NCBI RefSeq assembly: GCF_009659535.1
Contig: NZ_VJZZ01000022.1
Location: 1-64,000, forward strand
Direction of reading: 5' to 3'
DNA from: Aggregicoccus sp. 17bor-14
GTDB taxonomy: Bacteria > Myxococcota > Myxococcia > Myxococcales > Myxococcaceae
DNA length: 64,000 nucleotides
Shown here: positions 24 to 58,280 of the stretch, one piece after another
Position numbering within the stretch: the first letter of the stretch is position 1
How the letters are laid out: the number at the start of each line of letters is the position of its first letter
Program-made: the position numbers and the translations under genes
The notes under the pieces: generated by a model
Seen by the model: only the letters and a program-made list of their open reading frames with translations
What the model was told of the DNA's origin: nothing
The model's database searches: none

Positions 24-52
24 CTTCTAACCCTGGCGCTTTCGCCTGTCAA
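24..52 (-). promoter_or_regulatory. sigma70-type promoter, array copy 1
   Basis: Read on the minus strand: -35 TTGACA (47-52), 17-base spacer, -10 TAGAAG (24-29). It is the copy nearest the left edge and fires leftward out of the window. Its downstream flank is less like the GC-rich discriminator shared by the other copies. The target gene is not in the window. Confidence 0.75.
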
Positions 53-108
53 CCACTCCGCCCGTCCTGCCCGCCCGTCCCTGCCGCCCGCTTTCGGGCG
101 GGGCGCGG

Positions 109-138
109 CTTCTACTTCAGCGCCGCGTTCGGTGTCAA
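109..138 (-). promoter_or_regulatory. sigma70-type promoter, array copy 2
   Basis: Minus strand: TTGACA (133-138), 18-base spacer, TAGAAG (109-114), followed by the discriminator CCGCGCCCCGCC. A GC-rich discriminator of this kind is typical of stringently controlled stable-RNA promoters (family knowledge); its use here is inferred. Confidence 0.8.
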
Positions 139-212
139 CCACTCACCGCTTCGTCTGCTTCCCGCCGGCGCGCGCCCGACTTCGGCGTCTGCTTCTCGGC
201 GGCGGGGCGCGG

Positions 213-242
213 CTTCTAACCCGCTGCGCCCTCACTCGTCAA
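213..242 (-). promoter_or_regulatory. sigma70-type promoter, array copy 3
   Basis: Minus strand: TTGACG (237-242), 18-base spacer, TAGAAG (213-218), then the same CCGCGCCCCGCC discriminator as copies 2, 4 and 6. Confidence 0.75.
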
Positions 243-299
243 CCGCCTCGTCATCCAGCGGCTTGCTGCCCGCTGGTGCTTCCGGTCGGCGGGGCGCGG

Positions 300-329
300 C
301 TTCTACTTCGTCGCCGCGCCTGCTGTCAA
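300..329 (-). promoter_or_regulatory. sigma70-type promoter, array copy 4
   Basis: Minus strand: TTGACA (324-329), 18-base spacer, TAGAAG (300-305), discriminator CCGCGCCCCGCC. The match extends from the base before the -35 box through the discriminator, while the DNA between copies differs. This argues for selection on the promoter core rather than a recent tandem duplication. Confidence 0.8.
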
Positions 330-409
330 CCGCTGCTCGTCTTCGCTCTATTTCGGCTCGAAGACCCCTTCGTCCTGCCATGGTCTCGACCCTCTCGAGC
401 GGGGCGCCG

Positions 410-439
410 TAACTACCCCTTCGACGCTCTCGGCGTCAA
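410..439 (-). promoter_or_regulatory. sigma70-type promoter, array copy 5 (diverged)
   Basis: Minus strand: TTGACG (434-439), 18-base spacer, TAGTTA (410-415), then a shorter GC-rich discriminator. The -10 box differs from the TAGAAG of the other copies but keeps the same register. Confidence 0.65.
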
Positions 440-507
440 CATCGACTTCGCCGTCCATTCGTCCTGGCCGCCGACATCTCGGCCGATCCTTCCGGGGCGG
501 GGCGCGG

Positions 508-537
508 CTTCTACGTCCTGGCCGCGTTTCGTGTCAA
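508..537 (-). promoter_or_regulatory. sigma70-type promoter, array copy 6
   Basis: Minus strand: TTGACA (532-537), 18-base spacer, TAGAAG (508-513), discriminator CCGCGCCCCGCC. This is the most upstream clear copy. The -10 boxes of successive copies lie about 85-110 bases apart. Confidence 0.8.
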
Positions 538-539
538 CC

Positions 540-1124
540 GCGCTCTGCTTCCCCCTATTTCGAGGTCCTCGCCTGGGCGGGGACGTCCGTTCTGAGGGTG
601 TGATGCGGTTGCTTCGCTGCCACGGAGTTCGAGTCGATCCTCACTCTCGGCCCTCTGCGCTCAACCACCCTGCTCTGCTCCCGAGGAGCAGCTCCATCCA
701 CCGTCCCGCCACCGTCCGCCAGGGACCTGCCAGTCAACGCGCTTCATGCCGAGCCGAGGGACGCTTCGGGTCCACCGCATAAAGCCGATGGGTCTCTCCG
801 TGCTGCGATCCTTCTTTGCGGCCTCCGCTCCCGAGGGAGAGGCTGCCGCAGCTCGTTCGGTCTCTATTGATGAAATAAAAGAGCAGCAGCGCTTTCGCGC
901 CGTTTTCATCAAACCCTTGTGAGGTTTCCTCGAGCCTGCGGGCTTTCACCCGCTTGCGAGCACCGTTGTGCGCCGCGTTGCCGTCGGTGGGGCGGCTTAT
1001 GCGTCAAACCTCCGCGCGCCGCAAGAACTTTGTTCAACACCCGCCGATGCCTCTCGGCGTCACGGCTCCCGGGCTCCACGCGAGGTGCGCCCGGTAGGGG
1101 TCAAAACGGTCTGCCCCCGGCTGG
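540..1124. other. gene-free upstream DNA with AT-rich tract and possible seventh promoter
   Basis: I see no gene here; the short open frames are low-complexity Ser/Arg/Pro strings without a start context. An unusually AT-rich stretch lies at about 863-881. A weaker minus-strand promoter-like pair, TTGCGG (1019-1024), 17 bases, CATAAG (996-1001), is followed by CCGCCCC and resembles the array copies. A small hairpin, GCGGG/CCCGC, lies near 938-953. The gmk stop codon is at 1125-1127 and no U-rich terminator follows it. Confidence 0.45.
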
Positions 1125-1778
1125 TCATTCCCTGCCCTTCGCGGGCTCCGACGTCAGCGAGGCCTCGAGCTTCAGGCGCGAGAGATCGACACGTCCGCGG
1201 CGGCACCGCTCGGCGGCCACCACTGAGCGGAGGTCGGAGTACGCACGCTCGAAGTCGTCGTTCACGATGATGAAGTCGTAGGAGGCGGCACCCCGCTCCA
1301 TCTCTGCGCGCGCGGCCAGCATCCGGCGGCGGATGGTCTCGTCCGAGTCGGTGTTCCGGTCGCGGAGCCTGCGCTCCAGCTCCTCCATCGAAGGGGGCAG
1401 GATGAACACGAGGAGGGCATCGGGGTGCTTGCGCTTGATCGCCTGCCCTCCCTGCACGTCGATGTCGAAGACGGCGACGCCGTGCTTCGCCTTCGCCTCG
1501 TCCACAACCGACTGAGGGCTGCCGTAGAAGTGCCCGTGGACCTCGGCCCACTCCACGAAGCCGCCCTGCTCGATCAGGCGCTGGAAGCGCTCCACGTCGA
1601 CGAAGTGGTAGTCCACTCCGTCGCGCTCCTGCCCACGGGGGCGGCGCGTGGTGTAGCTCACCGAGAACACGCCCCCGGGCAGCTCCGAGAGGAGCTTGCG
1701 AGCGAGCGTCGTCTTCCCCGCTCCGGACGGCGCGGAGAGGACGAGCAGGAGACCGGGATGCAGAGTGGATTCGCTCAT
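1125..1778 (-). CDS. gmk: guanylate kinase
   Basis: Cytoplasmic enzyme that phosphorylates GMP to GDP with ATP, the essential step from GMP to the GTP pool. The 217-residue product has a P-loop SGAGKTT at residues 18-24, followed by the TTRRPR/G-E-DG-DYHF GMP-binding segment and the lid region, all in the order and length normal for bacterial Gmk. The ATG overlaps the yicC stop by four bases (ATGA), so the two are translationally coupled, as in many proteobacteria. It is the last gene of a long minus-strand run; no rpoZ follows, the next DNA being the promoter array. Function is assigned by family with high certainty. Confidence 0.97.
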   Translation of the reverse strand: MSESTLHPGLLLVLSAPSGAGKTTLARKLLSELPGGVFSVSYTTRRPRGQERDGVDYHFVDVERFQRLIEQGGFVEWAEVHGHFYGSPQSVVDEAKAKHGVAVFDIDVQGGQAIKRKHPDALLVFILPPSMEELERRLRDRNTDSDETIRRRMLAARAEMERGAASYDFIIVNDDFERAYSDLRSVVAAERCRRGRVDLSRLKLEASLTSEPAKGRE

Positions 1779-57056: not shown

Positions 57057-58280
57057 TTAAGTCTTCGGTGAGTTCTGGCGGGACTTCTGGCGCGCAGGCT
57101 GCGGGCGGCGCCGGGGGCTGCGGGCTGCGCGCGCGGGGGCCGCGGGGGCGTGCGACTCGCTCAGGGGGATCTGCTCCACCACCTCGAGCGCGTAGCTCTC
57201 CAGGCCGACGATCTTCTTCGGGTTGTTGGTGAGCAGCTTGAGGCGGCTGAGGCCCAGGTCTTTGAGGATCTGCGCCCCCACGCCGAACTCGCGCAGGCGC
57301 GTCTGGTCCGCGTGGCCGGGCACCGCCTCCTCATTGGAGACGTGGGTGCACTGCAGCTTCCCCTTCCCGCTCGCCTCGCGCTGCAGGTACACGACGACGC
57401 CGCGCCCCTCCTCGCGGATGCGCTGGAAGGCCTGCTCGAGCTGGTAGCCGCACTCGCAGCCCGCGCTGCCCAGCAGATCTCCTGCGAGGCAGGCGCGGTG
57501 CACGCGCGTGAGCACCGGGGCCTTGCCCGCCACGTCCCCCTTCACCAGGGCCACGTGGACGGCCGGGTCGACTTCACTGCCGTAGGCGTAGGCGGTGAAG
57601 TCACCGCCCGTGCGCCGCTGGAAGGGCACCTCGCCGATGCGGTGCACCAGCCGCTCGCGCTCGAGGCGGTAGCGGATGATGTCCGCCACCGAGAGCAGCA
57701 CCAGCTTGTGCTTGCGCGCGAACTTCACCAGGTCCGGCCGGCGCGACATGGTGCCGTCCGCGTTCATGATCTCGCAGATGACGCCGGCGGGCTTGAGCCC
57801 CGCGAGCCGCGAGAGGTCCACGCTGCCCTCGGTCTGCCCGGTGCGCACGAGCACCCCGCCCTGGCGCGCGCGCAGGGGGAAGATGTGGCCGGGGCGCACG
57901 AGGTCGCCGGGCTTCGCGTTGGGCGCCACCGCCACCTGGATGGTGCGCGCGCGGTCCGCCGCGCTGATGCCGGTGGTGACGCCCGTGGCCGCCTCGATGG
58001 AGACGGTAAAGGCCGTCTGGTAGGGGCTGTTGTTGTCCTGCACCATCAGGGGCAGGTTGAGCTGGCGGATGCGGTCCTCGGTGAGCGAGAGGCAGATGAG
58101 GCCGCGGCCGTGGGTGGCCATGAAGTTGATGGCCTCGGGCGTCACCTTCTCCGCCGCCATCACCAGGTCGCCCTCGTTCTCGCGGTCCTCGTCGTCCGTG
58201 AGGATGACCATGCGGCCCTTGCGGATCTCCGCGAGCGCCGCCTCCACGAGGTGGATGCTGCTGCTGCTGCCGTGCGCCAT
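57057..58280 (-). CDS. ribB: dihydroxybutanone phosphate synthase with degenerate RibA-like domain
   Basis: A 407-residue RibB-RibA fusion. The RibB half (1-205) is intact, with [16 protein letters not shown] and [10 protein letters not shown], and makes the four-carbon riboflavin precursor. The RibA-like half (215-370) keeps the three zinc Cys (264, 275, 277) and the ending [13 protein letters not shown]. It lacks the active-site consensus: HSEC reads HRAC, LRCDCG reads AGCECG, and the EGR-x-IGL motif with its essential Arg reads [11 protein letters not shown] cyclohydrolase II activity is therefore doubtful. A 40-residue basic tail ends the protein. It lies three bases before ribE in transcription. 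Confidence 0.93.

Follow-up and report, generated by a model that had tools for sequence, protein, structure and literature searches.

A row of six putative housekeeping-type promoters at a contig end in Aggregicoccus: the probable upstream region of a Myxococcaceae rRNA operon

Results

The DNA analysed here (the window) is a 64-kb stretch at the start of contig C22 of Aggregicoccus sp. 17bor-14, whose genome assembly comprises 6.9 Mb in 38 contigs and is 99.95% complete. The left end of the window carries a row of promoter units pointing off the contig, with the guanylate kinase gene gmk on their upstream side (Table 1). The initial annotation had placed six leftward promoters between bases 24 and 537, and all six were recovered there on the minus strand. 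An additional copy that it had suggested at 996-1024 was rejected, as it fell below the cut-off of 8 of a weight matrix for the promoter unit trained solely on other genomes. With this matrix the six array units scored 13.8-38.8, compared to 8.1 for the best site elsewhere in the 64 kb, a weak one and the only further hit.

Table 1 Features at the left end of the window
Feature	Position	Strand	Sequence or basis	Weight matrix score
Promoter unit 1	24..52	-	TTGACA-N17-TAGAAG, discriminator CATCGCCCCCCT	25.6
Promoter unit 2	109..138	-	TTGACA-N18-TAGAAG-CCGCGCCCCGCC, ACGCGGCG in spacer	38.8
Promoter unit 3	213..242	-	TTGACG-N18-TAGAAG-CCGCGCCCCGCC	34.7
Promoter unit 4	300..329	-	TTGACA-N18-TAGAAG-CCGCGCCCCGCC, GCGCGGCG in spacer	38.8
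Promoter unit 5, divergent	410..439	-	TTGACG-N18-TAGTTA-CGGCGCCCCGCT	13.8
Promoter unit 6, most distal clear unit	508..537	-	TTGACA-N18-TAGAAG-CCGCGCCCCGCC, ACGCGGCC in spacer	38.8
Terminator-like hairpin with T-rich tail, between gmk and array	887..902	-	1 found vs 1.2 in shuffles	
gmk, guanylate kinase	1125..1778	-	Pfam PF00625, E = 2e-48; synteny	

Within bases 1-1000, the minus strand carried six matches to TTGAC-N17-20-TAG and the plus strand none, compared to 2000 first-order shuffles of the same bases that averaged 0.008 matches and never exceeded 1. The reversed pattern, used as a chance control, had no match in the genome of this strain. TAGAAGCCGCGCCCCGCC was present exactly four times in the window, always within the array, and allowing up to three mismatches gave five matches where 0.47 were expected. 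Neighbouring units are spaced 86-110 bp from start to start, and the earlier description of the DNA separating them as unconserved was borne out.

The TTGACA -35 box and the -35/-10 spacing of the units fit a sigma-70/sigma-A housekeeping promoter. The -10 box TAGAAG agrees with TATAAT at four of six positions, with the final T missing, and a strict scanner called none of the array units. Most copies had been said to share the sequence that follows; this GC-rich discriminator reads CCGCGCCCCGCC in four of the six units, with a similar sequence in the other two. The divergent unit 5 is possibly weaker than the others.

On the upstream side, RNA structure of the region between gmk and the array (601-1123) was no more stable than in shuffles, and the hairpin located there is a weak terminator candidate. 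A rightward open reading frame across the array (21-782) was rejected as a gene. A comparable frame runs opposite the sister array described below, the resemblance arising because the two arrays share their units and the DNA is GC-rich.

Because base 1 is the start of the contig, the target of the array is unreadable directly, but it can be strongly inferred. A sister array lies at the right end of another contig of this genome, C20, and likewise points off it. The weight matrix recovers seven units there, and the last 123 bases of C20 are identical to window bases 1-123 read on the minus strand. Unit 1, the most 16S-proximal unit visible, lies within this common stretch. Model searches of the assembly for 16S, 23S and 5S rRNA returned zero matches. 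Two contigs running outward into one identical flank, combined with the missing rRNA genes, point to an rRNA repeat that was collapsed and discarded in assembly. A search of this genome for the leader conserved among relatives, run without a positive control, gave no match, and no tRNA or known RNA family was found near the array in the window. Far from the array, window positions 58062-58165 on the plus strand matched the Rfam family V_AS9, a Vibrio antisense RNA, at 50.6 bits (cut-off 50), which is probably chance or coding-sequence similarity.

Outside the two arrays the genome holds only one strict copy of the motif (G000 C4:370667-370699; L133:1501-1533, minus strand), located directly before a tRNA-Lys/tRNA-Leu pair, suggesting that the strict motif marks stable RNA genes in this genome. 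Matches to a looser pattern elsewhere in the genome were never next to tRNAs, and we therefore claim no general tRNA rule.

Relatives allowed arrays to be followed to their targets. Nine loci, from the complete or near-complete Myxococcaceae genomes G007, G010, G022 and G028, were readable through to 16S. In all nine, the array units stand in one orientation and are followed by a full-length 16S gene, beyond which, where the stretch reaches, lie two tRNAs (one reported in L038) and then 23S. Counted with a loose box definition, the operons of G010 carry 7, 7, 7 and 4 units, two operons of G028 carry 7 each, two of G007 carry 6 each and one of G022 carries 2; a further G022 operon shows four units ahead of a masked stretch. 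The last unit starts 279-294 bp before 16S in the nine loci, and a conserved boxA-like TCTTTGAAAAC is located about 176-183 bp before 16S in relatives. As in the window, gmk adjoins the array upstream in L036 (one of the G010 operons, with 16S) and in many draft relatives. In two loci from otherwise complete genomes, 2500-base N runs occupy the place of the 16S region (L037:502-3001 and L041:2002-4501); these are masked data rather than biology.

Scanning 84,980 species genomes with the strict motif yielded 81 stretches. Almost all came from Myxococcaceae, and almost all sat at the end of a contig and faced off it, the same assembly signature as in the window. The motif was frequent in Myxococcaceae, and in the other families of the order two sampled genomes had a single match each. 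Arrays across the family comprise 2-8 units, with 4-7 common; the longest, in Corallococcus sp. CA053C (L094), has eight, one of them weak.

A promoter of this type has been characterized in Myxococcus xanthus. The study of CdnL in this organism used the promoter P4rrnD and gives its ChIP primers (PMC4182748), one of which, reverse-complemented to TGACAGAAGACGCCGAACTG, maps to TTGACA-GAAGACGCCGAACTGAAA-TAGAAG in M. xanthus AM003 (L076). Located in this way, P4rrnD is the unit closest to the contig end, on the 16S side, with an N18 spacer and the same -35 and -10 boxes as the array in the window. P4rrnD is bound and transcribed in vitro by sigma-A RNA polymerase, its open complexes are unstable and need CdnL, and CdnL is present at P4rrnD in cells (PMC4182748). 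Unit 1 is probably its counterpart in the window, and the name P4 would fit the four-unit array of the close relative in L037.

Across the family, the DNA between units diverges while the stretch from -35 to -10, a feature missing from the initial annotation, is partly conserved. Within it, ACGCGGCG is conserved and keeps the same offset from the -35 box whether the spacer belongs to the 16-bp or the 18-bp class, as judged from loci L033-L043, L052-L131 and L004 with the kinship of the sequences left uncorrected. Three of the six window units retain it well. Its conservation could stem either from common descent of the copies or from a function of the site itself. Among 190 pairs of neighbouring units the spacing had a minimum of 86 bp and a median of 114, which would leave space for one polymerase per unit. 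The -35 to -10 distance was held at 16-18, and every unit was oriented toward 16S.

Discussion

The comparisons above give very good support to the view that the array lies upstream of an rrn operon and that the operon itself would lie beyond the contig end. A stable-RNA operon to the left of the window had been proposed from the sequence alone, and four lines of evidence now speak for an rRNA operon on the minus strand immediately left of base 1, namely the sister contig end, the relatives, gmk synteny and P4rrnD. We are highly confident that the left end of the window is a Myxococcaceae rrn promoter region in which six housekeeping-sigma units would feed leftward into 16S-tRNA-tRNA-23S. What is observed is the array, its sister, the position before 16S in relatives and the identity in type with P4rrnD. 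The presence of the operon in this genome, firing at every copy, additive loading and control by ppGpp are predicted. By analogy with the relatives, the 16S gene is expected to start some 230-300 bp to the left of base 1, a very rough estimate.

A different target, such as a tRNA cluster, a small RNA or a protein operon, is conceivable since the left neighbour is absent from the assembly, and the single strict copy elsewhere in the genome does serve a tRNA pair. The arrays of readable relatives, however, lead into 16S, the order gmk-array-16S is present in L036, and two contigs ending in one flank with the rRNA genes missing is the signature of a collapsed rRNA repeat, all of which make such a target very improbable. 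We consider it equally improbable that the units are regulator binding sites or a repeat element with only an incidental likeness to promoters. Conservation of ACGCGGCG in the spacer would be in keeping with that idea, since sigma factors do not normally read the spacer, but sigma-A polymerase binds P4rrnD, a unit of the same type, and transcribes it in vitro (PMC4182748), and the box distances are kept at 16-18 with all units facing 16S.

The chief doubt about a reading with multiple starts concerns the number of active copies. Only one or two, for example the one proximal to 16S, might fire, the rest being duplicates in decay that arose when rrn upstream regions recombined with each other or internally. 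Copy number varies among operons of one genome (as in G010), the -10 box of the copy at 410-439 is divergent, and the published work used P4 only (PMC4182748), each of which is compatible with decay. Yet the -35 box, -10 box and discriminator are conserved while the DNA between units diverges, which relics would not show, and the spacing stays at or above 86 bp throughout the family; we therefore regard decay as unlikely, if less so than either of the preceding alternatives. As copy number ranges from 2 to 8 among relatives, not all copies can be essential. A more speculative proposal, to which we give slightly less credence than to decay, is that the array is a dedicated polymerase-loading device, with units at least about 86 bp apart to give each room for a polymerase and the spacer ACGCGGCG read by some factor or by CdnL-bound polymerase, enabling all copies to be switched in a coordinated manner when growth stops and development begins.

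In the preferred reading of a six-promoter rrn upstream region, each unit would be a housekeeping-sigma promoter with a consensus -35 box, an N17-18 spacer, a TAGAAG -10 box that lacks the terminal T and, in most units, a discriminator very rich in GC. Each of the six is most likely an independent start site for RNA polymerase, and the transcripts would run leftward across the promoters downstream of their start, through a boxA-like leader and then 16S-tRNA-tRNA-23S. The weak -10 box and GC discriminator would make open complexes short-lived, such that output is predicted to depend on CdnL and to drop as ppGpp and DksA rise. Genes of both the CarD/CdnL and the DksA families are present in this genome, and growth-rate or ppGpp control of the array is plausible. 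The row of promoters would multiply polymerase loading on few operons. Both additive loading and a response to ppGpp are extrapolated from what is established about rRNA promoters.

Promoters in tandem before rrn operons have been described previously, and an M. xanthus promoter of the same type is already characterized; the array in the window is a longer case. In E. coli, each rrn operon has two tandem promoters. Their discriminators are GC-rich and subject to ppGpp/DksA, their -10 boxes are TATAAT-like, and UP elements and Fis sites accompany them. The window array resembles these in its tandem promoters for rRNA and GC-rich discriminators, whereas UP elements, Fis sites and a TATAAT-like -10 box were not identified in it. 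E. coli rrn P1 and P2 are mentioned in PMC5179076. Serial promoters also precede a single rRNA operon at Mycobacterium rrnA, with five in M. chelonae and two in M. tuberculosis (PMC10218544), but the window sequences and lineage are unrelated, and its units are more numerous and near-identical repeats of one type. The closest likeness is to M. xanthus rrn, where P4rrnD (PMC4182748) shares the -35 box, N18 spacer, TAGAAG -10 box, position before 16S and family. The M. xanthus-like arrays examined have about 2-5 units and commonly N16 spacers, in contrast to the 6 and 7 units and exclusively N17-18 spacers of the two arrays in this genome. The initial view that six promoters in series are unusual holds against the literature, with two known from E. 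coli and five from M. chelonae, but not within Myxococcaceae, where 4-7 are common. A literature search, with most subscription journals outside its reach, found nothing specific on six or more rrn promoters or on myxobacterial rrn arrays.

Myxobacterial genomes are very large and contain few rRNA operons, and it is starvation, sensed via ppGpp, that triggers multicellular development in these bacteria. Long promoter rows that vary in copy number lend themselves naturally to the questions of why some bacteria stack rRNA promoters and whether extra promoters substitute for extra operons. The copy number, the spacing never below 86 bp and the conserved spacer ACGCGGCG are points of modest interest. 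Arrays at the contig ends of draft genomes also mark missing rRNA operons. Separately, four BNCN01 contigs titled Comamonas sp. KCTC 72670 (L071, L073, L104 and L114) carry arrays very like those of Myxococcus, and from these myxobacterial rrn arrays the record is probably misnamed.
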